Part shown: positions 19,561 through 59,186 of the stretch, piece after piece | Layout: each line of letters opens with the position of its first letter | How positions within the stretch are numbered: the stretch's first letter is position 1 | Origin: Craspedostauros australis | Taxonomy: Eukaryota; Bacillariophyta; Bacillariophyceae; Mastogloiales; Achnanthaceae | Assembly: GCA_026770025.1 (NCBI GenBank) | Contig: JAMXDE010000026.1 | Coordinates: forward strand, 558,001-622,000 | Reading direction: 5' to 3' | Length of the DNA: 64,000 nucleotides | Made by a program: the position numbers and the translations under genes | Notes under the pieces: generated by a model | The model's database searches: none | What the model was told of the DNA's origin: nothing | Seen by the model: the letters and a program-made list of their open reading frames with translations, nothing else

Positions 19561-19626
19561 AGTGCAGTGGTCATCAGCGTGGAGGGAATCGAGGTGTGTT
19601 GTAGTCAGAGGATCTGAGGAGCATAT
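19561..19626 (-). repeat. Copia LTR fragment, left half
   Basis: Matches the copia LTR of copies 1 and 2 (compare 5990-6052) and ends GAGGAGCATAT. In an intact LTR the next bases are AGTTCCC. Here the 34.7-kb TIR-bounded segment begins, and ATATAGTTCCC is found at its far end (54363-54373). Confidence 0.8.
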
Positions 19627-19779
19627 GACCCACGTCAGCCAATGACCGTACGGTCGCTACAGGATCCTGAAAAAATGGGCTCCTATAGAGACTATAATTT
19701 AATCATATATACTTCAACACATTGGTAATAAGGTAGGAGTGTTAGACAGTGAGTCCAGGCCTTGGTTATAAACTTATGA
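19627..19779 (+). repeat. Left terminal inverted repeat of the 34.7-kb segment
   Basis: Nearly identical to the reverse complement of 54211-54362: one mismatch in the first ~105 bp, a few beyond. It holds the perfect palindrome GACCGTACGGTC and an AT-rich core. Similarity fades after CTTATGAT. Confidence 0.85.
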
Positions 19780-19840
19780 TGGCGTCAGCCTAGCGTTTTA
19801 GAGGCAAAACGTGATGCAAGCGGCCAGAATTCTCTTTTGA

Positions 19841-22278
19841 GGAAATTCACTAACCAGGTCGTTTTGGAGGCCAAAGTCCACTAACCAGGTCGTTTTGGTA
19901 TTGGCCAATCACAATGGCCGGAGTTTTGGCCGGCGCGTCCCTGTGACAACGGCGAAAATAATAATTTAGCCACGAAGCCAACACAAACATTTCACTGCAG
20001 AACAGTGGAAAGTAGTCTAGTTTATGATGTTGTCGATGAATCCTGTTGAGCAGAGGGTCAAACCAGCTATTATCGATTGCATACTAACATCAGCCATTGG
20101 CATGTACCTACCTTGGAACAGCTACATCCAACTGCAAGGAGATTCAGATTACATTTAGTCAGTTCATGTGCTGTCATTCGGTCACTGTGTGGAATGAGTT
20201 GGTCATATGTGCATATAAACTGTCAATCACAATCAAATCCAACCCGGCGCCCACTTCCAACACACTCCAAAGGATCTGGTCACGAAGTATGAGGTCTCCA
20301 GTCCATCTGGAAGGTAGTCAAATCTGAGAATCTAGATTTCGAGTGGTGCTGTGGGTGACAGTACTGTGAGCTACGCACCACACTGTACAGTAGATTGTCA
20401 AAATGTGCCTATAAATGTCAATCACAATGAAATCCAACCCGGCGCAAACTTACAACACACTCCAAAGCGTCTGGTCACGAAGTATGAGGTGTCCAGTCCA
20501 TCTGGAAGATAGTCAAATCGATGGATCTGGACATCGAGGTGCTGTGTGTGACAGTACTGTGAGCTACGCACCACACTGTACAGTAGATTGTCAAAATGTG
20601 AATATAAACTGTCAATCGCAATCGAATCCAACCTGGCGCGCACTTACAACACACTCCGAAGGATCTGGCCACGAAGAATGAGGTCCTAGATCCATCTGGA
20701 AGGTGTTCAAATCGATGGATCTAGATTTCAAGTGCAACATTGCGTCTTGTGAGGTAGATGGAGCACCGGACTGCCACCCACAGCACCACTCGGAATCTAG
20801 ATCCATCGATTTGAACACCTTCCAGATGGATCTAGGACCTCATTCTTCGTGGCCAGATCCTTTGGCGTGTGTTGTAAGTGCGCGTCAGGTTGGATTTGAT
20901 TGTGATTGACGTTTTCTATGCACATATGGGCAATCTACTGTACAGTATGGTGCGTACCTCGTTGTACTGCCACCCACAACACCACTCGAAATCTCCACAT
21001 CCAGATATGGATACCTTCCAGATGGACTGGAGACCTCATACTTCGTGACCAGATCCTTTGGAGTGTGTTGTAAGTGCTCGCCGGGTTGTATTTGATTGTG
21101 ATTGACGTTTTCTATGCACATATGGGCAATCTACTGTACAGTATGGTGCGTAGCTCACAGTACTGTCACGCACAACACCATTCGAAATTTAGATTCTCAG
21201 ATTTGACTACCTTCTAGATGGGCTGGAGACCTCATACTTCGTGACCAGACGCTATGGGGTGTGTTGTAAGTGCGCGTCAGGTTGGATTTCATTGCGATTG
21301 ACATTTATAGGCACATTTTGACAATCTACTGTACAGTATGGTGCGTAGCTCACAGTACTGTCACCCACAGCACCACTCGAAATCTAGATTCTCAGATTTG
21401 ACTACCTTCCAGACGGATCTAAGACCTCATACTTCATGACCAGATCCTTTGGAGTGTGTTGTAAGTGCTCGCAGGGTTGGATTCGATTGCAATTGACATT
21501 TTATATGCACATTTTGACAATCTACTGCACAGTATGGTGCGTAGCTCACAGTACTGTCACCCACAGCACCACTCGAAATCTAGATTCTCAGATTTGACTA
21601 CCTTCCAGACGGATCTAAGACCTCATACTTCGTGACCAGATCCTTTGGAGTGTGTTGGAAATGGGAGCCGGGTTGGATTTCATTGCGATTGACGTTTTAT
21701 ATGCACATTTTGACAATCTACTGTACAGTATGGTGCGTAGCTCATAGTACCGTCACCCACACTACATGATATCTAGATTCTCAGATATGGATGCCTTCCA
21801 GATGGACTGGAGACCTCATACTTCGTGACTGTACTCTCTGAGGTGTTCTCGGAGTGGTGGAGTTGTTGTAATCAAGTATGCTTGACATTTTGTATGCACA
21901 TATGACCAACATAGTACACACAGTGACCGAACGGTATCATGAGAACTGGCTATATGAGATTTATCACTCGTTGCAGCTGGATCTGGACCGTCCCAAGGTA
22001 GGTACATGCCCATGACCGATGTCAGTATGCAATATAGTTGGTTTAACCCTCTCCTCGTCTTCCGCAGAACAGGATTCATCAACACCATCAAAAACTGGAG
22101 TACTCTACACTACTCGACAGGGACACAGTTGATGTGTTTACTTCACGGCTAAATTAATATTTTCGATGTTGTCGTAGAGACACGCCGGCCATTTCAGTCA
22201 CCCAATCATCGTGTCGGGCACCAAAACGACCTGGTTAGTGGACTTTGGCCTCCAAAACGACCTGGTTAGTGAATTTCC
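19841..22278. mobile_element. Foldback-type element with internal tandem array
   Basis: Each end carries two direct copies of CACTAACCAGGTCGTTTTGG spaced 11 bp apart (19848-19867 and 19879-19898; inverted at 22221-22240 and 22252-22271). Inside them the arms continue as an inverted repeat of roughly 350-400 bp (about 19905-20230 against 21880-22215), with shared strings such as GGCATGTACCTACCTTGG. Between the arms is an array of ~195-bp units that switches orientation. No coding frame is supported, so this is probably a non-autonomous DNA element. No target duplication could be fixed. Confidence 0.7.
20221..21890. repeat. ~195-bp tandem units, orientation switch near 20755
   Basis: Units start near 20221, 20417 and 20611 on plus. 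After ~20755 the same unit recurs in inverted orientation several times until ~21890. Common strings are ACACACTCCAAAGGATCTGG, CGAAGTATGAGG and ACTGTACAGTAGATTG. The orientation switch sits beside a short unique stretch (about 20735-20770). The short open frames here are by-products of the repeat. Confidence 0.8.
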
Positions 22279-23613
22279 TCATTCTCTTTTTGAGGGGCTC
22301 TTGTCACGACACGTGGAACCCATTTCTGTCTGGTTTTCGATTTCTTTGTGTTTTGCTTGGTGGGACCCTCGATTCGGAACAAAATGAAGTGCTGATTTGG
22401 ACGTTACGGACGTTAACCCCAGTCGAAACTGTGATGACGTGATGCTTCTTGTCGTTAAGTGCGATGTGATGTCGCATGTTCCATGTTGAGTGACATCGTC
22501 AAGTCCACGAGTGGTTGGACAGACTTTTTATTTGATGTCTTCGACCCACCTGGTCCAGATCGAGACTGATTCTCACGGTTTTTTGGGGTCGCAGAAGCGT
22601 GTTCGCCAATCCGTTTCGAATGTGCATTTGGGACGCTCGTCGTGCGATGAAAATGAAATCAACTGTATTTGCGTTTTGCAACGCGTGTCACCACACAACA
22701 CGGCGGAGAGTCCGTCGTTGCTCATGTTCTGCACTGCGCGTTTTTGTTGAGTGACCTTGTGTCATACTCCTCTACATTCATCACAACATCATGTGCACTG
22801 CATACTCTACTCACACCCTACTATTCTACTCTGCATGATGTTGCTTTTCTCCAGAATAGACCTGGATTGTTTGCCAACTGCTATCCTTTGTCGTACAAAT
22901 CTGACGCACACAATCACCTGCATCACTGAATGGGAACGAGTAGTATTTTGCATCTTTGTTTTTGTGTTGTTTGTGCATCACCAAGCGACGGTCGACGCGT
23001 CCGACTGAATCATGTTGTGAACGTTCATGTTAACAATTGACGATTAACACACACATCACCGCATCCAACGACACACGCTCACAAGCACAACATCAACATC
23101 AACACAATCACCCAAACATGCTCAGGAGCACACACCAAATGCCCAAGTGCAAGGAAACCCAAGACAACCCAAGAGAACCAACTGAAGGAAATGATGAAGT
23201 CTTCGACTACTCTACTCCCCCACCCAATATCTGAATGGCCTCTCCATGCATTCTCTTATTGGCACTTACACTTGGAGTTGCCCATGGTCATCCAGGTTTC
23301 TGGAGACTGGAAATAGCAACATTCCCTTCCCTCCCAGCAGAAACAAATTAATTGCAGCTCTGTCGCATCTCCAACAGCGATCTCTTCAGGACAATACCTG
23401 CCATATGCACACACCCATCCATCAAACAGAGAGAAAGTCTGCCTATCAACACCAACAAACGCATTGGAGAGCCAATCATGATCAGCCAACAAAGAGCAAA
23501 TGTCCAGACTACAGAAGCCAGCAAGACAATGATCCAAAACGCAATGTGGAAAGAGGCAGCCAGAACTTCATCTATGCCTGCCTTTGCCTCCACCTTGATC
23601 AGGATGACTTGCC
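22279..23613. other. Unassigned DNA, no supported gene
   Basis: Mixed sequence between the foldback element and the next LTR. A minus-strand frame at 23256-23537 (Cys-rich, Trp-containing) and another at 23348-23593 (strongly hydrophobic) overlap in different frames. Neither has support beyond being open. They may be the remains of the site hit by the LTR at 23614. Confidence 0.4.
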
Positions 23614-24225
23614 TGTAAGCAAGTTCTGCTCACGGATACTCTTGTGATTTCATACAACAGTGTTGGTGGTGGTGCTGGTTGCTATGGTTTCTTCTGCTAT
23701 TTCATTATGTTGCTCGTCTGATTCTACCTTGGAGTCTCTGCTGTTAGTCCGATGCTCTTGGTGTCTTCCGTTGGTCCACCTCACTATGAGTCGGCACACA
23801 AGATCCTCTCTCGCTGTTACTTGTATTCTCTCTCGCTCTCTCAATATTGTGTGTTCGTACCATGCAATATTCCGGACTCGACATGTACTCCATATTCGAT
23901 ACACATTCCGTCATCTCATCCTCTATTGGCCCACTACTCCACGAGTAATCGTCAATGTCTCGTCCGAACTCCTCCTTGCATATCCGCAATCTTGATGTCA
24001 CTCGGTCATCAAATCTTCGCCTTCTTGGTATGATGTGGAGACAGCTGTCCATGTGGTGACATGATGACATCCTGTCAACATCAGCTGTCATGTTCCATAC
24101 TTCTTCAGATTCCAAATTCCATTGATGATGCAATGGTCTGGTGAGGATATTGTCATTTGAGGTTTAGTTGGGAATTGCATCGATTCTTCTTCGATGTCAA
24201 CTTTTTTCTGTTGGTTGATGGAAAG
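23614..24225 (+). repeat. Diverged LTR of the TGTTGGCAAG family
   Basis: Starts TGTAAGCAAGTTCTGCTCAC and follows the family sequence at 6596-7150 (GCTATTTCATTA, CTATGAGTCGGCAC, GACATGATGACATCCTGTC) with many substitutions. It ends without the family's terminal part, abutting an opposite-strand copy. Older than the other three copies. Confidence 0.65.
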
Positions 24226-25019
24226 TGTCGAGATGTACATGTGAGTATATGTCAAGATGTACGTGTATATGTGCATCGTTCACCCGTTATTCTCTCATAC
24301 GCACTTGGACGGTATAACTACACTCGTGTCAATAGTATGCTGTGATTCGTCAGAATTACAGTGGAAATGGAACACACGAAAAGGGGCAAGATTTCTGGAG
24401 GAAATTTGCAATTGACGATTTCTGAGAGAATTGGAATAATCGTCCGTCCATCCATCAATGGTACCAAGAGAATCTCGAGGTACTTCCCAACTAAACCTCA
24501 GATGACGATATCATCTGACAGACTACTGCATCACCAATGGAACATGACATCTGGAGAGCAGAAGGACACCTACTGACGTTGACAGGATGTCATCATGTCA
24601 CCACGTCGACATCTGTCTCCAAGTCAGAGCAGGAGGCGAAGATCCGATGACCCATGAAGATCATGGATACTGAAGGTGAACTTCAAATGGTAAGTACTCA
24701 TGGAGTAGGAACCAGTACTGAACGAACGGAGTGTCGAATGCGGAGTACGCATCGAGCACGGAGTATCGTGTGGCACGAGCACACGATGTTGAGAGAGAGA
24801 GAGAGAGAATAAAGAGAGGAGCGAGAGAGCATCTCGTGTACCGACTCATAGTCGGAGACCGAATCTACGAAACAGATTGAAGCACCGAGAGCATCGGGCA
24901 AGAGATCGGGCGTACACCGAGAGGATCGGAGTAGCCAACTAATGAAATAGCAAACGAACGACTATCAACCAACACCATCTTCCACGATCGTAGGTTACCG
25001 TGAGCGGAACTTGCCAACA
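24226..25019 (-). repeat. LTR of the TGTTGGCAAG family, apparently solo
   Basis: Reading on minus, TGTTGGCAAGTTCC to GTACATCTCGACA, about 794 bp. It is close in sequence to 29259-30051. No internal region or second LTR is attached. The flanks (GAAAG left, ACCGT right) do not duplicate, so this copy may be the residue of a deletion rather than a clean solo LTR. Confidence 0.8.
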
Positions 25020-25385
25020 ACCGTCAATTGAGCAACATAGCCCTGAACAAGATCCCATTGTGGTATCATTGCCAGATGGGAACTTGGGGACTTGGGCATA
25101 TTCTGGATGAAGTGCTTCTTCTAACGAATGACTTGGATGTGGCTCGGTTTTGGCATTTGAGAGGAGTTGAGTGATATCAATAGAGAGCGATTCCACCTTG
25201 TGGTATGGTACTGACAAGGACAAATGGGCATCCTGCTTGTGCGTTTGCGTTCCCGATGCCTCTGGAGGGCGGGCCTTGTTGTTGTCGTTTAAATCACCAG
25301 GATCTGTTTTGGAATCTGTTGCGGCATCTTCACGAGGTGTGCAGGCAGAGCATACTTGAAGAATGTACTCACGGAGTCAGAGACA
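25020..25385 (-). other. Coding-like fragment cut by the LTR at 24226
   Basis: A minus-strand frame of about 120 codons is open from near 25385 to the LTR border. It has an ordinary-looking composition (PREDAATDSKTDPGD, SVPYHKVESLSIDITQLL). It has no clear start and is lost at the LTR. The family is unknown; it could be an exon or part of an old pol gene. Confidence 0.3.
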
Positions 25386-26639
25386 ACCAGAATTGGTGAA
25401 CCCCTCCATGGGTGTGTCCGCTGGTGTTTGCAGGCCATCTATATTGTGAATGGTGGATGCCTGGTGAGACGAACATACTCTATATAGAGCCCATATCCAA
25501 CAATGGCATTTGGTGCCCAATTGTGTCCTTTGCTTCTTGACCTGACATGGGCCCAAATCAACCACTATCACATGCCACTCTTGCCCATCCACGAATCTTC
25601 CCATGGGGGTTCACCTATGTTCTTGGATAATGCACGCATTGGACTGGTGGTTGGTGTGGTGCCATTGCTGCTGTTCGAAGACCCTTGTAGAATTATGTTG
25701 TGTTTCTCCATTGTCATCTTGTTGTGCAGAGTTTGATGTTCTCAACCGTGGCTTGCTGTTAGGGGACGTGGAGATTACCCAGAATCGTACCGCATGTACG
25801 CAAGGAACAGGGTACAAAACACTTTGCGAGTCAGGAAGCCACAAAACCATTCCATCACAAAGAAACGCAGCTGACGATGTTCCACAACGTGTTGTGGTTG
25901 GTGTTTCACAATGTAGTATCTATTTCCTGTCACGTAGAGGACGGATCAGAGAGAACAAGCATGAACTAGATCTTATTGTGCAATTGCCACTTTTCCCAAT
26001 AGCAACCATTTCGGAGCAAACCAGTGCACAAACTCTATAACTAGTGTAATCGTTAGAGCATCGAAAGCGATCTGCAGGATGGCAGTTGCACGATCACATG
26101 ATCACCATGATGGTTATCTTCAGCCCAACGGTATTCACCACCATGAAGGTAGCGAGGAGTTGGTATCCTGTCGCTGTTTGCGTTGCTGCTGAAGATCACA
26201 ATTTGGCTTCTCCTTCGCCGATTCCGTGACAAAGGATCGAATTATTCGATGGAGCGCGTCGCTGTTGTGCGAGTTCCGCCACGTCACGCACTTCCTCCAG
26301 CTGAAACGTCTGCCTCGCACTTCACTCCGAATCTTTGTTCTTCACCGTCCATCCTCTCTGAAGAGCCACTGGAAACCAACGCAAAGCGCAAAAGGGCGCA
26401 ATCGAGGGATGACACAGAGGATGCGCACGAGTGCACATGTGGTTGGTACCTTGTCAATGTAGGAGGTCTGGCGTCAACTGGCGGCGACGGCATCGCATGA
26501 AACACCCACCCAGCATTGTGCACATCTTTGTACAAACATTTGTTCGTCGCTCCGAAAAGGAGGAGCAGTGATGTCCAATGGCCCTGGCCCTCCGCCTCGC
26601 TACTGCAGAATCCCCACCCACAGCACCACATGTGAACAG
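25386..26639. other. Unassigned DNA, no supported gene
   Basis: I see no domain, RNA gene or repeat boundary here. Short frames occur on both strands without consistent coding character. Confidence 0.4.
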
Positions 26640-27712
26640 CAAACAGTAAACAGCAGACAACCACACGAGCAGCATGAGCATCGCCAGCTAAAGCAACACG
26701 AGCAGCCGCATGAGCATCGCCAGTGCCAGCCACACGAGCAGCAGACAGCAGCATGAGCATCGCCAGTGCCAGCCACACGAGCAGCCGCATGAAGAGCGCC
26801 AGCTCCAGCCACACGAGCAGCAGCATGAGCATCGCCAGTGCCAGCAACACGAGCAGCAGCACGAAGATCGCCAGTGCCAGCCACACCAACAGCAGACAGC
26901 AGCATGAGCATCGCCAGCTCCAGCAACACGAGCAGCAGCATGAGCATCGCCAGCTAAAGCAACACGAGCAGCAGCATGAGCATCGCCAGTGCCAGCCACA
27001 CGAGCAGCAGCATGAAGAGCGCCAGCGCCAGCTCCAGCCACATGAGCAGCAGCACGGAGACCGTCAGTGCCAGCCACACAAGCAGCAGCATGAGCATCGC
27101 CAGTGCCAGCAACACGAGCAGCAGCACGAAGATCGCCAGTGCCAGCCACACCAACAGCAGACAGCAGCATGAGCATCCCCAGCTCCAGCAACACGAGCAG
27201 CAGCATGAGCATTGCCAGTGCCAGCCACACCAACAGCAGACAGCAGCATGAGCATCGCCAGTGCCAGCAACACGAGCAGCAGCATGAGCATCGCCAGTGC
27301 CAGCCACACAAGCAGCAGCATGAGCATTGCCAGCTCCAGCCACACGAGCAGCAGCATGAAGAGCGCCAGCTCCAGCCACACAAGCAGCAGCATGAGGAGC
27401 GCCAGTGCCAGCCACACCAACAGCAGACAGCAGCATGAGCATCGCCAGCTCCAGCAACACGAGCAGCAGCACGAAGAGCGCCAGCTCCAGCCACACCAAC
27501 AGCAGACAGCAGACAGCAGCAACATGAGCATCGAAAGCTCCAGCAACACGAGCAGCCGCACGAGGAGCGCCAGCTCCAGAATCACAAGCAGCAGCACGAG
27601 GAGCGCCAGCTCCAGCCACACCAACAGCAGACAGCAGCATGAGCATCGCCAGCTCCAGCAACACGAGCAGCAGCATGAGGAGCGCCAGCACCAGCAGACT
27701 GCACACAGCATA
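26640..27712. repeat. 36-bp minisatellite, about 30 units
   Basis: Imperfect tandem copies of a 36-bp unit; its halves are CAGCAGCATGAGCATCGC and CAGTGCCAGCCACACGAG. Because 36 is a multiple of three, every frame repeats with a 12-residue period. Five of the six frames carry no stop in the unit, which creates long apparent proteins on both strands: Gln/His-rich or Ser-rich on plus; Leu-, Cys- or Ala-rich on minus. I treat it as non-coding. Confidence 0.9.
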
Positions 27713-28010
27713 CAGTACACAGCAAGTGAGCAATCGCCACCGAATGACAATATTTCCCAATAATGTCAACATCAAACTCTTCCATCTTTGTCGAGTCTTT
27801 CTAGAAGTATCGCCCATAGCTAGTTCCATGTTGCTACTTGGTGTCCGCGATGAGTTCTGCTGTCCGTTTCCATTTTGGTGGTGTCCTCTGCGCAGATTGT
27901 CAACGAATGTATGATAATTGGCTTGTTCTCCAGAGAGAGGCTTGTCAGCAGATTGCGTGTTGAACATGAACAAGTAGTGATCTGCGTGTACTTTACTGAT
28001 GGTTCAAATG

Positions 28011-31000
28011 TTATTGCTGTTCGTTTCCACATTGGTGGTTGGATTTTTGTGCGGTTGTTCGTGGTGGCTGTTCTGTGTGTTTTGGCGCCAATTTTCTCTT
28101 TCTTGGGTTTGGCATCGTCTTGTTGAGATGGGCTTGTACACGGTCCGGTGTTGTTTGCCATCTGAGAAGCCAATCGTGCTGCACAAATTCCATCACCTTT
28201 TCATGTGCTTCATGTTTCAATGCAGCTTTCCTGGTCTTTGGATCATTCAGGTTGTAGTAGCCATCGAGAAATGCCTTGATGTGCGGTGCCAGTGGAACAC
28301 GTTTCCTTGACTTGGTCATGGCCCACCCAGCACTCATTTTCGGTGGATGCAAGGCAGTTCTGGTGGGTTCTGCCAATGTGTGCTTCATCACAACATCTCC
28401 AATCCCGCTCTCTTTCACAGCTTGAGCACATGCAGTGGCAATACTATGTGCCTCTTCATCTTCTGGAACAAGATCATCTTCCCCCCTGCGCTTTGTTGTT
28501 GGCAATTTGGTTGTCAGAGCGGGTTTGTTGGACTTCTCACCAAACTTGCAGCTGATTGCAAGATCCTCCTTTGGATGCTCATCCAGCTGCTCCTTGTGAA
28601 CCGTGACAGGTTCTGAAACCCCTGAAGATGCATTCACATCCACATGATCATCATACCATTTGACGTGATGCGTAGCTCTCACCGAAGCAAAGTTCACCTT
28701 GAACTTTTTTGTTGACTTGATTGACTTTTTCAGCTTGGATGCGTCGACAAGCACCACAATTGTTCCTGCTATCTTTGCTTGATTCACTGCCTCGAAGATT
28801 TCCGATTCTGTTGTCACCTTGAAGCCCCCCTTCAGATATGAGTCCAACACACGAGTAATGAAGCTGAAATGGGTATCAAGCCGACACTTACCCGTCTGTG
28901 CCTCGGAATACACCCACTCCTTGATGTTTGGTAGGTGCTGATTCTCTGCATCGTTGTTCAGGTGGAAGATGTATGGAATCAATTCTTGGCTTGCAAAGCA
29001 ACTGGCATTGTCACTTTGCATGATGACCTCTGTCACATTTGGGTATTCAACATGAATCCGCTTCATCAGGAGCTTCAACACGCCTGCAACTTGATTGTGA
29101 TCTTGAGTAGAGTAGCCAGCAATGACAAAGTCCATGAACTCGAACTTAAATAGGCCATTCTTACAGGTCACTATCATTGCACCAAGCAGTGACATACCTG
29201 TCTTGCCGTAGTACTGTGTCTGAGCTTCCTTTGGCCACCGTGGCAACGTTTTCTGTTGTGTCGAGATGTACATGTGAGTATATGTCGAGATGTACGTGTA
29301 TATGTGCATCGTTCACCCGCTATTCTCTCATACGCACTTGGACGGTACAACTACATTCGTGTCGATAGTATACTGTGATTCGTCAGAATTACAGGGGAAA
29401 TGGAACACACGAAAAGGGGCAAGATTTCTGGAGGAAATTTGCAAATGACGATTTCTGAGAGAATTGGAAGATCGTCCGTCCATCCATCAATGGTACCAAG
29501 AGAATCTCGAGGTACTTCCCAACTAAACCTCAGATGACGATATCATCTGACAGACTACTGCATCACCAATGGAACGTGACATCTGGAGAGCAGAAGGACG
29601 CCTACTGACGTCGACAGGATGTCATCGTGTCACCACGTCGACATCTGTCTCCAAGTCAGAGCAGGAGGCGAAGATCCGATGACCGAAGGGCATCAACATC
29701 ATGGATACAGAAGGTGAACTTCAAATGGCGAGTACTCATGGAGTAGGAGCCAGTACTGAATGAACGGAGTGTCGAATACGGAGTACGTATCGAACACGGA
29801 GTATCGTGTACGACGAGCACACGATGTTGAGAGAGAGAGAATACAGAGAAGAGCGAGAGAGCATCTCGCGTACCGACTCATAGTCGGAGACTGAATCTAC
29901 GAAACAGATTGAAGCGCCGAGAGCATCGGGCAAGAGAACGGGCGTACACCGAGAGCATCGGAGTAGCCAAGTAATGAAATAGCAAACAGACGACTATCAA
30001 CCAACACCATCTTCCACGATCGTAGGTTACCGTGAGCGGAACTTGCCAACACTGTTGGTGGTCAAGTACTACCATGACGATGTCATCTCTGTTGTTGAGC
30101 CGCATTCGGATCTTGTTGATCTCTTTCTTCTGCACCTTCGTTCGCACCTTGTGCGCCATGAATGTTACGACTTCATCATCCAACCCTTCAACCATCTTCA
30201 CCATGCTCTCCAATTCGGCTTTCTCGCTGGGATTGAGTTGGATGGACCCGTCGGCGACAGATCTGACGAATTCATTGACCTTGTTAGGAAAGAATGTCAC
30301 CGTTTCAGCGCATGTGCTGCATACCTTGCCATTTGCATCATGCTGCGTGCCTTTGCAAAGAGCAAACTTTGCACAGTGCAACGGATCATCATTGGCAGCA
30401 CGGGCAGCGTGAGCAGTAGGAGTAGCATTGCCATCACCATCACCATCACCATCACCAACATTGTCTCCCACTCGCACATGGGCCCCAGCATATGATTCAT
30501 GGAGGAACTTTGCATGCAACTCCCATTGCATTGCCAGGTGATCTGCTCTCGCCTTCACTTCCATGGCAGTCCTGGTGTCACTCCTAAGATGTACGATCTG
30601 CTCGATCCTCGTAATCATCTCTTTCAGATGCGTTTGTATTGCATCAAAGTTGTACACATATGATGACACACCCGTTTCGCATTTTCCTGGTCTAGTGAGC
30701 AGGTGCGCCATCCTCATGAAGGCGGGCTTTCCAACTGGATCCTCGCATGACGCCTGATAACTTTCGAACATGCTCTGCAAAGTCTTGCCACCCCGAAGAA
30801 AGATTGGGAGGTTGGGAAGGAGGACTCCATTCACCACCTTCGATCTCAGCTGTCCAGGGCGAAAGGCGAGCGTCTCATTGAAGAATGATACAACGCTGAC
30901 AAGCCTCTCCACAGGCACTCGGTACGGGTAGGAAGCCTTCACCACGCATTCGCCTCCCAGCCATAGCTGGTATCATTCACGTGACGACGTTTCTTCCGAT

Positions 31001-31797
31001 TTTGTCATCGTCTCGCGGCCAAGGGGCACTTTCTCTTGTTGTGCCAGAGGCAAGCTGTTGCTGAAGTGCTGTGTCAGTATGGCAGTCGCCGCTTCGCATG
31101 GGTACGCTCGTCCCACCACGGATCGCGCCATAGTGGCAACTTCCTTGGGCGCAAGCAAGCACATGGAGTACAGGTGCTCAGCGAGTTCGAACTTTGGGAG
31201 CTGCATGCCATGGATGGCGTACTTGGACATCTCGTCGAAGAACAGTAGGCTGGCTTGCTTTGTCTTTTTCAGTGACAGGGACCACACCTTCTTGCAAATG
31301 CTCGAGCACATCTTCTTGAGCCGGCTGATCTGTGGTGCACCATTCTCCTCTTCTCTGAGGGACTCAATGGTATGGTTGAACCCGTTGTCCGGCATGCCAT
31401 GAGTGCTGCTACGTTCGATGCCAAGAACGTTCAAGACACCAATAAGCAGGTTTTTGTTGCATGGCTTATGCTCGCTCTTGTACCCGCAGCGTGGGCACTT
31501 GTGGAAAGACAGTCCCTTCTCCACATAGGCATCCTCACCATCATCGCCGTCGTCGAAGTCGTACTCGTTGCCGCTGCTGGCAACGCCAAGATCATCACTG
31601 TTGCTGCCACTATCCCTGCAGTTGTACTTGACAGGGGTGTGCACCCGAGAGCTGCGCGGAGAGCGCTTGGAGGGCGATCCACGTGCTCCTGCTTCTGGTC
31701 TGGAAGAACGGGAGGCAGGAGAGGTGGACGATGCAGGCGGAGACCGGGAAGGCTTCCCCTTGGAGTGAGTAGGGCTGGAGGCAACAGGGGAGCTCAT
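28011..31797 (-). pseudogene. Broken gene with a DDE-like core, possible transposase
   Basis: Minus strand, ATG at 31797 (MSSPVASSP), about 1,000 codons once the inserted LTR is discounted. A TGA at 30973-30975 interrupts the frame, which then resumes in phase. An LTR at 29259-30051 with a CTGTTG duplication splits codons for ..LDHQQ and KTLPRWPKEA; the frame is in phase across it. N-terminal part: Ser/Pro-rich, then a Cys/His cluster CPRCGYKSEHKPC near 31459-31500. Middle: a second Cys cluster (CAKFALC..CSTC) near 30310-30375. C-terminal part: STQDHNQV, then SDNASCF near 29010, SEAQTGKC near 28900 and LDTHF near 28875. This D/E/D spacing is what I associate with an unnamed family of transposon-borne RNase H-fold proteins. 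The role as transposase is inference. Stop at 28011. Confidence 0.6.
29259..30051 (-). repeat. Solo LTR, TGTTGGCAAG family, inside the DDE-like gene
   Basis: 793 bp, TGTTGGCAAG to ATCTCGACA on minus, flanked by CTGTTG at 29253-29258 and 30052-30057. Removing the LTR and one duplication (799 bp) restores the gene's reading phase, which confirms both the boundaries and the target gene. Confidence 0.93.
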
Positions 31798-41067: not shown

Positions 41068-41079
41068 ATGTCCGGGACA

Positions 41080-44228: not shown

Positions 44229-44245
44229 GGTAGCTGCGAGTGGTT
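44228..44245 (+). promoter_or_regulatory. Primer binding site of the 43686 copia element
   Basis: TGGTAGCTGCGAGTGGTT, identical to the site in copies 1 and 2, starting on the last LTR base. Confidence 0.65.
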
Positions 44246-47500: not shown

Positions 47501-50500
47501 GCAGCCGCCCGTGTGCAGGAGTGCCCGCTATGTGCGGCATGCCAATTCGGCAAACAACACCGCAGACCAACGCCAGGCACAACACAGCACGCAATACTGG
47601 ACCGACAGGGTGTGATCAAAACTGATCATCTCTTCCCTGGCCAACAGGTCTCCGTGGATCACTTCGTGGGACGCACGCTGGGCCGTCTATTCACTGGAAG
47701 GGGCAAATCCGACTCCTCTGAGATGTACAAGGGCGGAGCGATGTTTGTGGACCATGCATCAGGGTACATTCACGTGGAACCTGTTGCGTCCCTCACCACT
47801 CATGCAACCCTCGAAGCCAAGACACGATTTGAGTCCATGTGTCGCGATGTGGGTGTACCAGTGCGCTCCTATCTATCGGACAATGCCACCACCTTCACAT
47901 CGCCAGACTACACCAAACACCTCGAGCGCTTCCACCAAGTGCATCGCTTCGCCGGAGTCGGTGCCCATCATCACAACGGAGTGGCCGAGCGGAGCATTCG
48001 TACCATCATCTCCATGGCACGCACGATGATGATGCATCAGAGTATTCACTGGCCGACGATGTTTGACGCACAGCATTGGCCCATGGCGGTCGTGCATGCA
48101 GCGTACATTCACAATCGGGTCCCCAACGCAGCCACTGGATTGACACCAATGGACATCCTTTCGCGTACTCGCATCCCGCTGAAGCAGCTTCACAACCTTC
48201 ATGTGTGGGGCAGCCCAGTATACGTGTTGAACAAAGCTCTCGGCGATGGTCGCAAGATCCCACGATGGGAACCACGCGGAGAACGGTACGTCAACATGGG
48301 TCTCTCCACCCGTCACGCATCAACAGTCCCCCTGGTGTTGTCACCACGGACAGGATCGATTACCCCGCAATTTCACGTCGTTTTTGACGACTGGTTCGCA
48401 ACCATCGCAACAAACCCAAGCGACCTTCCCGACTACAACACCAGTGAGTGGACCCACATGTTCGGCGATACAACCTACCAAATCCCTTTTGACGACGAAG
48501 ACATCATCGCCATGGAAGAAAGAGACATCGAACGTGAAGACGCAAACGACCACCAACGGTTTCACTCCACAAACGATGCCCCGATGCCACCGCCATCATC
48601 AGGCGCGCCACCGGTATTCACGCGAACTCCGATCAACACAAATTCACCAGCTCACATTTTGGAACAGCCGTCGGAACCGGAAATGAACAGCGACACAACA
48701 CCGGTCGATCAAGTGCAACCACCTCAACCAACCTCCCAACCAGCGGATACTGTTGAAGATCACACACGCACACCACCAATGCCACCAACAGAGGGAGGCG
48801 AGGAGCCGAAAGAACGTGCCGTCACAACTTCGCCAAACCTGTTGCCACCAACAGAGGGAGCGACAAACGATGACGAAAGCGGTATAATGCCGATCGCAAG
48901 TGATTCCCCTCCAGCTTCGCCACCTCGTGAGCCCATTCACGCGCCAACGAAAAGAGACAAGGCAAAATCATCCAAGCCACCTCCACTTCGCCGCTCGGAG
49001 CGTATCAACAAACGAGAGCCACGAGAACGCAAAACCGTCGAGCGACTCACCTACAACAAATTAGGGGGCAAAGTCGTGTGGGCAGATGACGACACACCAC
49101 CCATCGAAGCTAGCGCCAACGTGACAACTCAACACACAGGTGACCACAGCAAGACCCAAGCGGTACAGAGCATGAAGAAGGTCCTGCAGGAGTGCCGCCA
49201 GTCGCTAATGGAGTTCACGGAGCACCCTGACGACCAGGTAACACAAAAAGCCAAGGTCCTGGTCCGTGACGCGGAATCCATGCTCCGAAATTTGAAAACC
49301 ATCGATACCGAAGAGCTACGAAAGGACGAACGGCGTTGGGCGCAGGGCGACCTCGAAATGGAACGGATGCTACGTGCAAGACAGCTCGAGATCCGAGCCG
49401 AGATGCGCAGGGAACAAGAGGAGGCAGCGGCCAATGAAGCTACATCCCGGCATGAACATCACATCCTCATGATGAGCAACCAGTCCGACCCGCCCTCAGA
49501 GGACGACGACTCATCCCCCGGCAACACCATGGACCCCATCGACATCGGCCACCTGTGGCCACATCACGTCAACATCACTCGGCACATCCGCCACTACTTT
49601 GACCATGTGGTGCGGTTCCGATTCCCGACGGAAGCTGCAAGGAGCCAGTGCATCTACTACGCCATCCGTAGATTTGTTGACGCCGTCGATGAAATGCTCG
49701 AAACAGGTGAGTATCACCTCCCCGTCTCGTACTTCGGATTCATACCAAGGGTACAAGGTCAACGGTATACCCTGGAACGAGCTATCGCGGCCATGGAGAA
49801 CGGTCTACGACCACCGGACGAAGATGAACGGGTACAGGACTTCATGCGACGAGCGGGCTTCGCGTGGCATCTCATCACGCATGACGAGCGATTTGAGATC
49901 GGAATACTTCACTTGCACATCCAGCTTGGAGTCGCACCCGAGGTACCACCAACGATCATGGCCCCACCGAGCGAATTCGAACCAGCAGAACAGCACGCTT
50001 CGGCATCAACTCACTACGCCTACCAACCACCGCCGTATGACGACGAAACCGACGAACACTACGCGATGGCAGCAGCGGTCGAGCACGACGACAACGACAA
50101 CCACAGTGCCCTCATCACATACGACCTGCTCAGCTTCTTCACCAGCGGCGGCGACCTCGATATCGCAGATCGCCACTACAGCTACAAGGCGTCAAAAGCT
50201 GACCCTGACACTCTTTCCTTCAACGAGGCAATGAATGACGACAACAAAAGCGAATGGATGGCCGCCGCGCACAAGGAAATTCACGATCTCACCAACAAAG
50301 GGACGTGGATTGAGGTGCCGAAATCCTCCATCACCGATCGCATCTTCCCTGGCACATGGGTGTTCCGACGCAAGCGAATGCCTGACGGCACGGTCAAGAA
50401 ATATAAAGGCCGATGGTGCTGCAGAGGCGATATGATGACCGAAACGGAAGCGACCTACGCTCCAGTCGTCGCATGGTCGTCCGTCCGCGTCTTTCTCATC

Positions 50501-51778
50501 CTTTCCATTCTGCTCCGCTGGGTCACGACATCGATCGATTTTTCGAACGCGTTCGTCCAAGCCGACATCCACCGGCCTGTCTACTTACATCTTCCTCGCG
50601 GCTTCCGATCAACGAATGGACCTGACACGTGCCTCAAGCTGATTAAAAGCCTTTACGGTCTCACTATAGCTCCCAAGCTATGGTATCAGCATCTCGTGCG
50701 CGCCCTCCTTGCAGAAGGATTTCACACGTGTGATCAAGAGAAGTGCCTGTTCATGCGCGACGGCATGATGATCGTTCTCTACGTGGACGACGCCGGTATC
50801 GCATCGCGTACGGAAGAAGAGGCAGACGCATTCATCGAGTCCATGCGCAAACGCGGATTTGATCTCACACGCGAAGGCACATTCACGGAATTTCTGGGAA
50901 CATCACTGCATCGAGACCCCAAAAACAACACCATCCACCTCAAGCAAACCGGGCTAATCAACAAGATCATCGAGGCCACCGGCATGCAACACTGCAAACC
51001 AAATGTGACACCAACAACACAACTTGCCCTCGGCGCCTCAACCGACCAACCGCCAATGAAGGAAGCATGGAACTACCGCTCTATCGTCGGCATGCTGCTC
51101 TACTTGACTACGAACACACGCCCCGACCTTGCCTTCGCCGTCTCTCAAGTGGCCCGATTCAGCAACGATCCCCGCCAACCGCACGCAAAGGCCATTAAGA
51201 TGATCGTGCGATACCTCCGCCACACAAACACCATGGGCACTATCGTACGACCAACGGGCCAACTTAACCTGGAGTGCTACGTGGATGCCGACTTTGCTGG
51301 TCTATACAAGCGCGAGTCCGACGATTCTCCCAACGCAGTGCGCTCACGCACCGGCTACGTCATCATCCTCGGTGGCTGCCCGCTCGTGTGGAAATCGAAA
51401 CTGCAGACGGAGATCGCCCTATCAACAATGGAGTCGGAATACGCCGCGCTGTCTCTTGCCATGCGTGCCCTCATCCCCATGCAACAACTCATCAACGAAG
51501 TCAACGCATCAACGAGCCTCAACCAACCGCTGCAAACCAACATCCAATGCACCGTTTTTGAAGACAACGAGGCGTGCATTGCACTGGCAACGAACCACAA
51601 GGTCACGGCGCGGACCAAGCACTTCCTCACTAAGTGGCATTTCTTCTGGCACTGGGTCAAGGAGGGCTTCATTCGAATCCTGCACGTGCCAACACCTCAC
51701 CAAGTCGCCGATATCTTCACCAAGGGTCTCGCGCGGGATGCATTCGAGCACCTGCGCCGCATGCTCATGGGGTGGTAA
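44585..51778 (+). CDS. Copia gag-pol polyprotein (2,397 aa, intact)
   Basis: ATG at 44585 in the context CACCATGAG, TAA at 51776. Gag is followed by WCAKCRHWRISHGTAGH (CX2CX6HX4H, Cys 514). Then comes a hydrophobic segment at residues ~563-620 that would form two membrane helices. Protease is VVWDTGASICVTND with Asp 782. The HHCC site HYRLGHLSF..CAACQFGK leads into integrase with Asp 1025, Asp 1099 and Glu 1135 (D,D35E). A linker of roughly 650 residues holds a basic RRSERINKREPRERK stretch and a charged helix near residues 1580-1625 that may form a coiled coil. Reverse transcriptase has YVDD with Asp 2068; RNase H begins YVDADFAGLY with Asp 2234. The C-terminus is QVADIFTKGLA. All catalytic residues are present. 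Confidence 0.95.
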   Translation: MSAQGEDTSISSEERRLEAFVERLNQQAAQALRDLNESRISRGAAPIPAQQRDQTAAGQGEGETAQDNDGDANDQPNPGETDGTARRGGNEGNPTESTGGDFPFAADEDPIGPETTYVAYESEDKPEKPIMGGLTKAGRHWVPWTGGKPNVEWTGLAEDAATSYDSSQQQRVLHNGSDSKNQPEREKGIRPRFRIGDNRQRMLRLLKDHMSTAGLISMTYMRSNEHPDEMVCVLDAPGSTTISQATDHHDHYRYLWDRYDKQNNASAARFLRDSLDPDLEDRLMNRIKPKYQQDFNVIFTELIKSITSSSLDKYARLQEKVRKTTPQKFQGENIQAMADALRIMCKELQDADQFEISLLRTMTDNFFMAGGRTTSGERYRHRILDISDRLRRLIEDKSLKTYERAEPHLLREDLTWMDICSVAEDAYLDELQGNSWHANRHSRDRNTPRMHANHTSTTKEARLLEQHKGGKRQGAKNKSTTKRAQPKKDPWITTPPRKGEPQQKLMNDKTFHWCAKCRHWRISHGTAGHIDDFQRKAKSPQLEIDHAAWTCLSAEAHVSELAWWTAVWKTFTSFDTVNILTGSFLALCSVQIAVLGIECGWYVMSTMMWMTTAIVLFALHTSVPRHYQPTSARTSHATNVWKKKQRKRFKTHQRFYHHPAKPADSLYDSVFGDDDFKHFLHDKRTTIAKFDAPRANHRNKTRRVRRCKGTSQNSCRAKHTPSPARPPNQRCEAQPSEHANTNVFTNADYTLTAIFGCKHAFAAPHKVEEVIPSGGSFDVVWDTGASICVTNDMNDFVGPTSAPTTPTFLNGFLRRTKVKTKGTVEWSILDTNGKPRSLRLPAFYVPGSSVKLISTTSLLHQYKGENIIVEATNIKLSGIPGNEERGSIIAHNRKANRLPTSRAYRTGDLSDVPAALTTTITSVAQHNQNLSQPQKELLKWHYRLGHLSFRRVQFLLRSGALVNTEASRKMQTAAARVQECPLCAACQFGKQHRRPTPGTTQHAILDRQGVIKTDHLFPGQQVSVDHFVGRTLGRLFTGRGKSDSSEMYKGGAMFVDHASGYIHVEPVASLTTHATLEAKTRFESMCRDVGVPVRSYLSDNATTFTSPDYTKHLERFHQVHRFAGVGAHHHNGVAERSIRTIISMARTMMMHQSIHWPTMFDAQHWPMAVVHAAYIHNRVPNAATGLTPMDILSRTRIPLKQLHNLHVWGSPVYVLNKALGDGRKIPRWEPRGERYVNMGLSTRHASTVPLVLSPRTGSITPQFHVVFDDWFATIATNPSDLPDYNTSEWTHMFGDTTYQIPFDDEDIIAMEERDIEREDANDHQRFHSTNDAPMPPPSSGAPPVFTRTPINTNSPAHILEQPSEPEMNSDTTPVDQVQPPQPTSQPADTVEDHTRTPPMPPTEGGEEPKERAVTTSPNLLPPTEGATNDDESGIMPIASDSPPASPPREPIHAPTKRDKAKSSKPPPLRRSERINKREPRERKTVERLTYNKLGGKVVWADDDTPPIEASANVTTQHTGDHSKTQAVQSMKKVLQECRQSLMEFTEHPDDQVTQKAKVLVRDAESMLRNLKTIDTEELRKDERRWAQGDLEMERMLRARQLEIRAEMRREQEEAAANEATSRHEHHILMMSNQSDPPSEDDDSSPGNTMDPIDIGHLWPHHVNITRHIRHYFDHVVRFRFPTEAARSQCIYYAIRRFVDAVDEMLETGEYHLPVSYFGFIPRVQGQRYTLERAIAAMENGLRPPDEDERVQDFMRRAGFAWHLITHDERFEIGILHLHIQLGVAPEVPPTIMAPPSEFEPAEQHASASTHYAYQPPPYDDETDEHYAMAAAVEHDDNDNHSALITYDLLSFFTSGGDLDIADRHYSYKASKADPDTLSFNEAMNDDNKSEWMAAAHKEIHDLTNKGTWIEVPKSSITDRIFPGTWVFRRKRMPDGTVKKYKGRWCCRGDMMTETEATYAPVVAWSSVRVFLILSILLRWVTTSIDFSNAFVQADIHRPVYLHLPRGFRSTNGPDTCLKLIKSLYGLTIAPKLWYQHLVRALLAEGFHTCDQEKCLFMRDGMMIVLYVDDAGIASRTEEEADAFIESMRKRGFDLTREGTFTEFLGTSLHRDPKNNTIHLKQTGLINKIIEATGMQHCKPNVTPTTQLALGASTDQPPMKEAWNYRSIVGMLLYLTTNTRPDLAFAVSQVARFSNDPRQPHAKAIKMIVRYLRHTNTMGTIVRPTGQLNLECYVDADFAGLYKRESDDSPNAVRSRTGYVIILGGCPLVWKSKLQTEIALSTMESEYAALSLAMRALIPMQQLINEVNASTSLNQPLQTNIQCTVFEDNEACIALATNHKVTARTKHFLTKWHFFWHWVKEGFIRILHVPTPHQVADIFTKGLARDAFEHLRRMLMGW

Positions 51779-51848
51779 CGGAGACGCAAATTGTGAACTG
51801 TTGATCGAACGATGGAGGTTTTTACACCGGGGACATGCTTCGCACTAC

Positions 51849-51860
51849 GCCGAGAGGGAG
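51849..51860 (+). promoter_or_regulatory. Polypurine tract of the 43686 copia element
   Basis: GCCGAGAGGGAG directly before the 3' LTR, matching the tract of copy 2. Confidence 0.7.
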
Positions 51861-52403
51861 AGTTGGGACAGACTAGCTCCGGGACTGACTCGGGACCTGA
51901 CTGTCCATTCCGCGTACACAGTATTTGGTACCCAAGACCGATACTGTGATGAAAGGCTACCACACACACGATGTGTAGTTGAACTGCAATCCATGCGTTG
52001 CTCGCCCTCCAGCTCATGCACCCCTGCCATCTGTCCATCTCGTCATTCTGTTGAACATGCATCTATCTTGAAGCATATCCATGTGAATGGATCAGCTGCT
52101 GCTCTATGGGTGACGATACTGGAAGACTGTATGTGTGCAGGATCACCACGGCATGCTGCTGCGCAACAAAGAACGGCTACAGTACGACAGCACGAACCCC
52201 ACCTTTTTACTCGATCGTCCTATCAATAGTAAGCTTAACACATAAAACAAGCAATCAGAAACAATCTTACCAGCTTACTTCCAAGTCTACTACAGTTACA
52301 TCATCGTCTGATACAGCTTTGTTCTCAACATCAAACGGCGTCAAAACCGGTTGAAGGACAAACCATCCTCCTGGCAACGTGCAAAAGACACGGAATACTA
52401 ACT
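51861..52403 (+). repeat. 3' LTR of the 43686 copia element
   Basis: 543 bp, same length and, as far as compared, same sequence as the 5' LTR. Followed by the duplicated GGCAG. Confidence 0.95.
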
Positions 52404-52408
52404 GGCAG

Positions 52409-53682
52409 TCTACACATGCTTCCTATTGATTCGTCAATGCATGCTGAATGTTTTCTTTGGATTGGTTGATTGTCTCAGGGCGCAGTCTGTAGTCTATGTG
52501 ATGCTCATGATTGATCTTGTATTGGTGTTGGGTGCATGCTTTGCTGGATACCCTCAGTTGGATGCAGTATTATCTGCTCTCTGCTGCTTACGACATGTGC
52601 TGCAGACTTCTGTGTTGTGTGCCATGCTTTCTGCTCATTGATTGCCTCCTGCCAGATGCTGTGCTATTGGCCATCAGCCAAATTTATGACTCTCAAAGAG
52701 TATTGAGATATTCATTCCACTGCCTCAATGCTCAGCCATCTGTAAGGTTCCAAATGCACGAATTCGCTGGTCATCGTCATTGTCATTGTGCTGTCAATGT
52801 TGTTGAGGATTTTGTTGTCCTGATGCATGGCGTTCGCAGCTCGTTGTGCGTCGCTGACTGCTCCTCTTTGCCTGTGCTTGGTGCTGTCATGTGGGATGCA
52901 AACTTGGCCCATGGTGGGAGTGCAATGAGATGCAGCTCTAGATGCGTTATTTCCCTTCAACCATACTCGTATTCCTCATGCGTTGGCATAGATTGTTGAC
53001 AATGGTTGCTGCGCCTGCTGATGAGTCTGTGGAAGGCATTAGCGGAGTACCTTGGTGGATGTCTCCGCTGGTGTATTCATGTGATGGTGGAGTCCCATGG
53101 TCATCGACAATGCTGTTGATACCAAACTACGCAGTGTCCTTCTACTCAGCGCGCATTGAGCTTTTCGTCGATGGGCACATTGGCGTCGTTGGTGGTGATA
53201 TTGGTGACCTGTGGACCTGGTTGACTTCCTGTGGTGAATGTAATTGTGGTTGTTGTTCTTGTTTCTGTTACTGACGGTGTTATTGGGGCGAATCAGTGGG
53301 TGCACTCAACACCTCTTGCCAAACGATTCGTCGAATTTGTGGAGTTTTGCGGCTTTGCAAACATCAGATTCTGTCTGTCCGTCTACCATCATACACACGT
53401 CATGATACTGAGACGAAATGATTGGACAAGGAGTTTTGATGATGACGTTCGACAAATGTCAATGACAAAAACGAGATCCATCTCGAAATTTCAAATTTGA
53501 AATTGAAACGTTCACATCACTCAGTAGTATAAATTACGTACAATTTCGCCATACATGAAGAAGGACGTTTCGGGAGTTGCGCGAGCCGATATTCGAAATG
53601 ATCACTCTCGCTTTGGATTGATGACGACCGGATGGGCTCCGCGATTGCTTCTTCCCCAGCAGACTGCATCTCATTGTATGCT
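52409..53682. other. Unassigned DNA, no supported gene
   Basis: Continues the T/G-rich sequence seen left of the copia insertion. Overlapping short frames on both strands show no motif. Confidence 0.4.
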
Positions 53683-54100
53683 TCAAAAATGATCCACTTC
53701 AGAGACTGGAGACAGTTTCTTCGACAAGGGTTGGATTGAACCACTGGGATCGTACAACGTGAACGAGGACATTCCCAACAGTCCAACACGGCGATCCACG
53801 AGGGTGATGATGTCAACGCCACTCTCCATCATCGCCTTGCTCTTTGAGTAGGGCTTGGACTGGACCACCACTCGTGCATGAGCGGTTATTCCTCCCCCAT
53901 GCACGATATCGAGCCAACCGAAACAAAGATGAGCGTTGGAAAAGTAGCTGAAGCGCTTGGAGCGGTTGTGCGCGGTGGCTGCTTTGTTTCGCGACGTTGA
54001 GTGTGTCGTGAAATTGTGTCGTCTGCCCGTGAGTACGTTTCATTCACGAATGTTTGGCCCAAAATCGAGTTCGAGAGGGTCTCGGATCCGTGAACCAACC
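53683..54100 (-). other. Coding-like remnant near the right TIR
   Basis: On minus, a frame with ordinary protein composition is open from about 53950 (AHLCFGWLDIVHGGG) to 53683 (VVQSKPYSKSKAMMESG, ending SPVSEVDHF). A different frame upstream is also protein-like (SILGQTFVNETYSRADD), as if joined by a frameshift near 53950. I do not recognise the family. Its place close to the inner side of the right TIR makes it a candidate gene of the 34.7-kb segment. Confidence 0.3.
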
Positions 54101-54210
54101 AGAAATGTACCGAATCAGTCTCATTGACGAAAACTCACAATACGAGGAACAACGCGAAAAACGCACTCACAAAGGCCCTATTAGAGATAGCTTGGCCATT
54201 TTCATGACCT

Positions 54211-54362
54211 CATAACTTTATAACCAAGGCCCGGACTCACTGTATAGCACCTTTCCCTTAATACCAATGTGTTGAAGTATATATGATTAAATTATAGTCT
54301 CTATAGGAGCCCATTTTTTCAGGATCCTGTAGCGACCGTACGGTCATTGGCTGGCGTGGGTC
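54211..54362 (-). repeat. Right terminal inverted repeat of the 34.7-kb segment
   Basis: Inverted match to 19627-19779. Followed by ATATAGTTCCC, the continuation of the LTR that stops at 19626. Confidence 0.85.
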
Positions 54363-54373
54363 ATATAGTTCCC

Positions 54374-57926: not shown

Positions 57927-58470
57927 CACAAGAATGTGCCTCTCATGGATTTCGTGAACATGATGGTCAAGGACATGCTCCACAACAACGAAGCCCCTGA
58001 TCCACCAAGCTCATTTGCCAGGATGAGAAGCGACCAGCCATCGGAAGTGCAATGTGGTGGCAATGGTGGCTCCTTGTCTTTGTTGACAACCGACAGTCCA
58101 GCCCATGCGACAACACAGGTGGCCCGTGCGACGACACAGGTGGCCGAGTGGCCCTGAGCAGACTTGATTAATGGTAACCACTTGGTAAAGCACTCAGGTA
58201 GAGTCCGGAACGGGAAGATTGACCATACGAAGCAGGGGATCGCCAGGTTCATGACGAGAGGGAAACGGGGCAGATGCTGTGTGTGCACGACTCGTCAAGG
58301 TACCATTTCCTGAACTGTCGAACGGGGTCTCCAGGCCAAACTGTTTGGTGCTGCGAAATGAAGGAGTACGACGGAATATTTCAACGATGTTTCGAAATCC
58401 ATGCAGAGAAACATGCAGGATCAAGGTCGCGTAGTTCCACACACCCAGACACCATGACAGATAGTTAAAG
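57927..58470 (+). pseudogene. Decayed C-terminal part of the piggyBac-like gene
   Basis: In the transposase frame, coding-like sequence continues past TGA codons at 57924, 58155 and 58311. A Cys cluster is visible before the last stop (GKRGRCCVCTTRQ). Then, in another frame, WCCEMKEYDGIFQRCFEIH reads to ~58468. Together they resemble the Cys-rich C-terminal finger of piggyBac proteins, now broken by a frameshift. Confidence 0.55.
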
Positions 58471-58914
58471 AAAGATGAGTGAAGAAGTCTGTGTCACAAC
58501 TCTTTCTATGTTCAATGGATTGTATGCAACAGCCAATGCAATGCAGGAAAGGAAGTGAAACGCCGCAGGGGGGGATGATCGGCAGGAAGAAGCGATGCCA
58601 CCAGTTTTCAGTGACCCGACCCGACGATATTGGATGTGGCAGAACTCAACGAGGAGAAGAGATGTGAACACCAAACTTCGGGGAGGGATGCAGCAGATGC
58701 AGGACAGATAGCTGGTAAATTTTAGTGTTGGTAGGATTGAGTGAACGTTAATCCGGAGCAAAAGAGTGCGGATGTTGGTGGTTTTTTGCAAGTTGGTGCT
58801 GTTTCCCTCGTAGCGGCTCCGTAGAGTTGTACCAGGATTCGACTACTTCGACCCTGTAGCCCCCTGTAGCCCCTTGTGGCCCCAAATGGGGGCGACACAA
58901 AAAGCGGATAGGCA

Positions 58915-58997
58915 GTAGGGGGGTATTTGTTGTTTCTGTACTCTATTTTGGTTCAGTCCCGTACAATCGGGAATTAATGATGTCACACATTTCGACA
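58915..58997 (-). repeat. 5' LTR of the miniature element, second fragment
   Basis: Starts with the duplicated GTAG and matches 54456-54538 to ATTTCGACA; followed by GTTCCC. Confidence 0.8.
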
Positions 58998-59186
58998 GTT
59001 CCCAAGGTGAGGTGTGAGTCAGGTCGGTCATGTTTGAGTCATGATGGATTCGTGAATGGGGGAGAGAAAGGAGGAGAAAATATTTGGTGGTCAATCAAGT
59101 CGGAGGATTTCGCGCCAAAACAAGAATTTCTCCCATCGGGTTGATACCGTGTCCGGTAGTAGTCTGTCCCTTATTGAATCTCAACT
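58998..59186 (-). repeat. Copia LTR fragment, right half
   Basis: Matches the first ~190 bp of the copia LTR on minus, ending with AGTTGAGATTC at 59186. It continues the LTR piece at 19561-19626 and 54363-54373. The flank beyond is CCGGG; on minus, the interrupted frame at 59187-59786 runs into it. Confidence 0.85.

Follow-up and report, generated by a model that had tools for sequence, protein, structure and literature searches.

A 34.7-kb interval between terminal inverted repeats in Craspedostauros australis fits a mid-sized transposon enlarged by nested insertions and holding the remains of a DDE transposase

Is a 34.7-kb stretch of DNA between terminal inverted repeats (TIRs) a transposon of that size, or a smaller one that other elements have entered? 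The question is raised by a locus of the diatom Craspedostauros australis, which we analyzed in a window of 64,000 nucleotides (contig JAMXDE010000026.1, positions 558,001 to 622,000). The window is C24:558001-622000 in the labels used here, where C1, C7, C24, C35 and the like are contigs of the 74.8-Mb assembly covered by our genome searches, and L-labels are loci extracted for reading. We find that the interval arose by a single insertion into a copia long terminal repeat (LTR), with an NTAN duplication of 4 bp, that two copia elements and a foldback element are inserts within it, and that it is a dead copy holding the remains of a DDE (Asp-Asp-Glu) transposase. Taken as a whole, the locus is probably best explained as a transposon of about 14 kb swollen by nesting, with a transposase gene native to it and of a group that would mobilize the family.

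A repeat search of the window gave an inverted pair of 157 nt with 94% identity (19623-19779 and 54210-54366), within which the TIR proper is 153 bp long, with arms 93.5% identical; the element between the duplications spans 19627-54362, or 34,736 bp (Table 1). The flanks read GAGC-ATAT, GACCC...GGGTC and ATAT-AGTTCCC. Both outer flanks are halves of one copia LTR, and the unbroken target form, GAGCATATAGTTCCC, is present at three window positions (6042 on the forward strand, 7355 and 15817 on the reverse strand). Because this empty form is found unbroken, the duplication is ATAT, 4 bp, and because sister copies show ATAC, GTAT and TTAA it is not TA alone. With ATAT on both sides and flanks from one copia LTR, the interval is accounted for by a single insertion that duplicated 4 bp. 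An earlier note, made from the letters of the window alone, had recognized the near-identical repeats and the split LTR correctly; it began the right arm at 54211 instead of 54210, left the choice between ATAT and TA open, and drew a span (19561-59186) that reaches beyond the element.

The TIR belongs to a family spread over the genome. Allowing up to 3 mismatches, a 21-base TIR end has 47 occurrences, more than chance would give, the reversed control pattern having 1. Together with the places found by each TIR arm as query (left, best 40 of 51 candidates scored; right, best 40 of 49), these form 15 inverted pairs by position, the other TIR ends being unpaired. The 13 pairs that were read in sequence measure 4.1, 7.7, 7.8, 8.1, 8.4, 11.4, 12.6, 12.6, 12.6, 13.0, 16.9, 17.3 and 34.7 kb, and the 12 besides the window copy (4.1-17.3 kb) have interior parts common to several copies; the remaining two pairs lie at C80:25478-33952 and C41:553936-577480. 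The genome search proposed by the earlier note thus did not end in short copies only; 13 pairs of 4.1-34.7 kb, not short non-coding elements, exclude a miniature inverted-repeat transposable element (MITE). The 4-bp flanks are identical in 10 of the 13 (ATAT in six, TTAA in two, ATAC and GTAT in one each), and the target is therefore NTAN, neither strict TTAA nor bare TA. TIRs accompanied by a duplication of constant length in several copies are the mark of a cut-and-paste TIR transposon.

How the window copy came to its length is shown by a sister copy, C35:149814-158234 (L009, 8.4 kb), which is collinear with it at 92-98%, except for a solo LTR (88%). This copy has neither the two copias nor the foldback, and its gaps coincide with the additional DNA of the window copy; both copias and the foldback are therefore inserts. 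The foldback is flanked by a 9-10 bp duplication, ATTCTCTTT(T), and with its 60-bp TIR and 196-bp units it presumably resembles elements of the Mutator/Rehavkus type. The two solo LTRs belong to one copia family, different from that of the nested copias; C35:149814 has a solo LTR of its own near the position of the first, and it also carries the older dispersed repeats. Because their LTR pairs are near-identical, the nested copias are probably young and arrived after the element had landed. Together the two copias, the foldback and the two solo LTRs make up about 19.9 kb and leave about 14.8 kb, in agreement with the 14-16 kb estimated earlier, or about 13.6 kb when the older dispersed repeats are subtracted too.

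Nested DNA is also carried along in this family. A LINE-like (long interspersed nuclear element-like) insert lies at one shared site, with a duplication of about 17 bp, in six of the 13 copies (L014:1278-9501 in one), at full length in four (8.4 kb, 97-99% identical) and shortened in two. The long frame of this insert encodes an Exo_endo_phos domain, and its two shorter frames gave no Pfam match. The four full-length carriers are flanked by ATAT, TTAA, ATAT and one damaged pair, and because these flanks differ, the composite of about 12.6 kb has transposed several times. Large composites therefore move as units in the TIR family. A 3.2-kb piggyBac-like insert is common to the C7 and C20 copies.

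The gene with a DDE-like core that the earlier note had seen is indeed present, but it is interrupted by a single in-frame stop and by a solo LTR, into which the frames 28011-29312 and 29878-30972 run. Three catalytic motifs are preserved (VVLDHQQ, QSDNASCF and SEAQTGKCRLDTHF), and the protein shows the RNase H fold and the Asp, Asp and Glu residues that mark RNase H-like DDE recombinases. The window element is thus a dead copy with the remains of a DDE transposase.

Stop-free relatives of this gene are abundant. For the C-terminal part of the window transposase 102 genome matches were listed (101 of 357 candidates scored), and, counted by hand, 73 of them lie in frames of 1,100 amino acids (aa) or more without a stop; the motifs of this DDE group are DHKQK, SDN and EAQTGK..LDxHF. 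One subgroup has TIRs of 134 bp, for which 34 of 40 scored matches form 17 pairs, 14 spanning 6.0-6.7 kb and 16 enclosing an N-terminal match to the DDE gene. Two pairs read at both ends have the duplications CTAA/CTAA and TTAT/TTAT and the ends GACCCCA and GAGCCGCC, with the general form GA(C/G)CC. To judge from these features, the subgroup seems to be a cut-and-paste family that was active until recently and makes NTAN duplications of 4 bp, a style that this free-standing family has in common with the window TIR family. At C41:577460-577502, as a separate observation, a TIR of the free-standing family starts 22 bases from where a window-family TIR ends. The left interior of the window element (22980-24222), which consists of dispersed repeats, gave no match near the related genes on C14 or C52 among the best 40 of 1,242 candidates.

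Pfam has models for KDZ, EnSpm/CACTA, hAT, MuDR, Harbinger, Tc1/mariner, P and Merlin. Nine DDE group proteins matched none of these and no other transposase model in Pfam at max_evalue 10, a setting at which HMMER's own filters still discard most hits weaker than about 0.1; a distant relation to one of them is possible. The group had no match in the PDB by sequence, none among viral proteins by fold at E 0.001, and no relative in the viral contigs searched. A profile search of a protein database added one protein, and one named relative comes from Phytophthora. Among the papers listed by our literature searches we found no description of ends like those of the window element or of a transposase of this group, which may be new, or already in Repbase but missing from Pfam.

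The second gene of the earlier note, a secreted Cys-rich one, fared less well: it is a decayed fragment, present in two of the 13 read copies. A Pro/Ser/Thr-rich linker precedes it, which together with the Phytophthora relative of the DDE group might suit a stramenopile, perhaps a diatom. Copia 1 splits the piece, whereas its C35 version is a single open 298-aa frame; C29 retains only sequence downstream of it. The two parts (approximately residues 7-117 and 112-297) align at 48-60% identity with eight open frames elsewhere in the genome, 1,044-1,133 aa long, where about 1 kb or more separates them. Because they match distant parts of these frames, the piece is, on these alignments, a shortened and decayed part of a gene family of about 1,100 aa, not intact cargo. 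The protein database gave no relative of it at E 0.001 among 314 candidates. Relatives of the piece seem to ride in another element family too: window positions 25482-25790 also match other genome places at 71-74% (best 40 places scored), and six of these (C1:393744-399497, C7:1040163-1045916, C14:688919-694627, C28:110246-115954, C40:122961-128427 and C49:401402-406921) lie 4.66-4.93 kb from a Cys-rich match, in fixed geometry and opposite orientation. Separately, a hand count gave 29 genome matches on many contigs with 393-aa frames, each with three internal TGA and 38-39% identical to the Cys-rich piece, which look like a dispersed repeat with a decayed Cys-rich gene.

Among described systems, the window element belongs to a known kind, the large TIR transposon with nested inserts. 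The giant DNA transposons of the brown alga Ectocarpus comprise KDZ, EnSpm and Sola-1 elements in the accessible text of PMC12477816. As described there, they share with the present family a size above 10 kb, nested inserts that have become fixed in more than one copy (here the LINE-like insert) and transposase-less copies presumably moved in trans; what sets the present case apart is that nine proteins of its transposase group gave no Pfam transposase match, that the TIRs are 134-153 bp long and that the duplications are NTAN. Sola2, in the portion of PMC3627910 available to us, makes AWWT duplications, has TIRs of 12-21 bp and a transposase of 888 aa, and carries other genes. AT-rich 4-bp duplications, a large transposase (frames of about 1,200 aa here) and the carriage of other genes are points of likeness; in this comparison by description only, ATAT accounts for six of the ten exact duplications of the window family, and ATAC, GTAT, TTAA, CTAA and TTAT also occur here, with TIRs of 134-153 bp. 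No Sola model was among the Pfam answers for the nine proteins. piggyBac likewise makes a 4-bp duplication, TTAA, which is found in some copies here, but the duplication is not fixed to TTAA (two of ten exact ones), and DDE_Tnp_1_7 matched none of the nine proteins at max_evalue 10, while piggyBac-like proteins of the genome do match it. Mutator-like elements (MULEs) make duplications of 9-11 bp, unlike the 4 bp here. What the element has in common with gene-capturing elements of the Pack-MULE type, which the accessible text of PMC12477816 names, is a piece of another gene between the TIRs.

Our preferred account runs as follows. A cut-and-paste transposon, probably of roughly 14 kb, inserted into a copia LTR, and the insertion of two copias, a foldback and solo LTRs raised its length to 34.7 kb. 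The TIR family would be mobilized by transposases of the abundant DDE group, and the broken gene would be the element's former own transposase. Sister copies would have lost this gene by deletions with breakpoints at solo LTRs, and gene-less copies, the LINE-like composites included, would move in trans, as their shared nested inserts and different flanks suggest. An element expanded by nested insertions, which the earlier note had offered as an alternative, is thus the better description, but its starting form would have been about 14 kb and not short.

We favor, with some reserve, the view that the broken DDE gene was native to the element. A C14 relative is collinear with window 26452-33063 and a place on C1 with 32909-33529. 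The gene block showed no TIR at either edge, with 25 of the 74 short inverted pairs listed. The right edge is defined only by comparison with C35, and the window sequence runs straight on there. In C35 a solo LTR with the flanks ACCAT and CCCAT starts exactly at this edge and therefore fits a deletion between two LTRs in that copy; in C29 the same LTR also lies at a breakpoint that removes neighboring sequence.

Several findings weigh against this reading. The earlier note had asked whether each large copy has the gene; only one of the 15 TIR pairs holds a match to the DDE gene group, and the contigs of the closest relatives (at C14:1624733, C52:359248 and C28:237109, with C1:2954857 for the upstream region) have no match to the window TIR. 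The two TIR types are no more alike than shuffled sequences: over the first 105 or so bases 1,723 of 2,000 shuffles score as well, and over the first 25 bases 444 and 1,028 of 2,000. They share 7 of their first 11 bases, short of the Repbase rule of one mismatch in 11 terminal bases, as worded in the accessible part of PMC4455052. On its left the gene block is bordered by a rearrangement at solo LTR 1, which hides the original neighbor. The fold model of the DDE protein is of moderate quality (pLDDT 70.3, pTM 0.60), and Foldseek alone gave no PDB match for it at E 0.001 or better. Finally, three of the 13 pairs have inexact flanks: GTAA/GCAA, ATAA/CTAT (C35:96038-112888) and TTAT/ATAA at a damaged left end.

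Some of these points would suit a different history, in which the gene block was a separate DDE transposon that entered a non-autonomous TIR element and lost its ends, the family being mobilized by another, unseen transposase. The scarcity of the gene among TIR pairs, the relatives' contigs lacking such TIRs and the dissimilar TIR types are what it would predict; moreover, the 3' region of the block resembles the downstream region of other read DDE genes, and nesting is common in the family (piggyBac in C7 and C20, LINE-like in six copies). We nevertheless hold it to be unlikely, if worth keeping in mind, since neither TIR nor duplication is seen at the block edges, a separate insertion leaves unexplained why the right edge is an LTR edge in C35:149814, and the free-standing DDE family has the same duplication type and similar first bases. 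That the piggyBac-like transposase inside the C7 (882 aa) and C20 copies drives the family is highly improbable, and we rejected it: TTAA does occur in two of ten exact duplications, but the other eight differ, the gene is nested, lying in a 3.2-kb insert that is bounded by CCC...GGG ends of its own and breaks into C4 sequence, and close copies of it lie far from any window-type TIR. The idea that all 34.7 kb, copias included, moved as a giant transposon retains a very slight chance. The TIRs and duplication do enclose the whole interval, as the earlier note had stressed, and the LINE-like composites did move as units, but the two copias are at these places in none of the 12 other read pairs, and their identical or nearly identical LTRs point to entry after landing. 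An assembly artefact joining two unrelated ends could be suspected from there being only one known copy of this size, and is hardly credible given identical 4-bp flanks, an empty site in the same copia LTR and two halves both collinear with C35:149814.

Table 1. Features of the interval, in window positions
Feature	Position	Strand	Remarks
Left target site duplication	19623..19626		ATAT
Left TIR	19627..19779	+	begins GACCCACGTCAGCC
Foldback insert	19839..22280		60-bp perfect TIR, 196-bp inverted and tandem units; absent from C35:149814
Older dispersed repeats	22981..24222		repeat of ~620 bp (22981-23604) and degraded reverse solo LTR (~23619-24222)
Solo LTR 1	24226..25019	+	TGTCGAG...CCAACA; no matching duplication; rearrangement breakpoint
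Block with transposase gene	25020..33573	-	absent from sister copies C35:149814 and C29
Stretch like downstream region of four read DDE genes	25482..25790	-	L044, L046, L047, L048; 62-66%
Minisatellite region	26563..27714		36-bp register; downstream of transposase gene; collinear region after C14 relative
Broken transposase gene	28011..32022	-	open frames 28011-29312, 29878-30972, 30973-32022
Solo LTR 2	29259..30051	+	within transposase gene; CTGTTG on each side
Cys-rich piece, first part	34063..34539	+	96% to C35:149814
Nested copia 1	34535..41721	+	LTRs 630 bp, 100% identical; duplication AGACT
Cys-rich piece, second part	41702..42148	+	two in-frame stops
Nested copia 2	43686..52403	+	LTRs ~550 bp, 99.8% identical over 551 aligned bases; duplication GGCAG
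Right subterminal region	53013..54209		common to 12 other read pairs, 86-95%; from 53167 in the 16.9-kb C35 copy
Right TIR	54210..54362	-	
Right target site duplication	54363..54366		ATAT

Further repeats and genes were seen around these features. Just outside the right TIR, at 55767-57926, lies a 719-aa piggyBac-like frame (DDE_Tnp_1_7, E 2e-15). The stop-free 882-aa piggyBac-like frame of the 3.2-kb nested insert with CCC...GGG ends is at L012:4105-6750 and has copies of 94-95% elsewhere in the genome. At the left end of the window, positions 1-4968 and 8442-13409 form a 4,968-bp inverted repeat, 99% identical with its arms 3.5 kb apart, the right arm overlapping a long copia-like open frame. 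At 62670-63883 a 65-bp unit is repeated in tandem about 16 times.

For the DDE group itself we propose, tentatively and with the odds somewhat against us, that it may be an undescribed superfamily of protist cut-and-paste transposons with NTAN duplications, GA(C/G)CC ends and TIRs of 134-153 bp, which would repeatedly have picked up Cys-rich gene pieces and given rise to large derivatives with nested retroelement cargo, the window element being a dead lineage with its own transposase. If the group is truly unclassified, a large share of the mobile DNA here would escape annotation that relies on Pfam, and a new integration specificity, for 4 bp with TA at the center, would be open to study. The TIR family shows a stepwise path from mid-sized to giant elements, in which retroelements land, some of the composites move again and LTR-associated deletions remove interior sequence. 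A 34.7-kb interval between TIRs need not, then, equal a 34.7-kb transposon.

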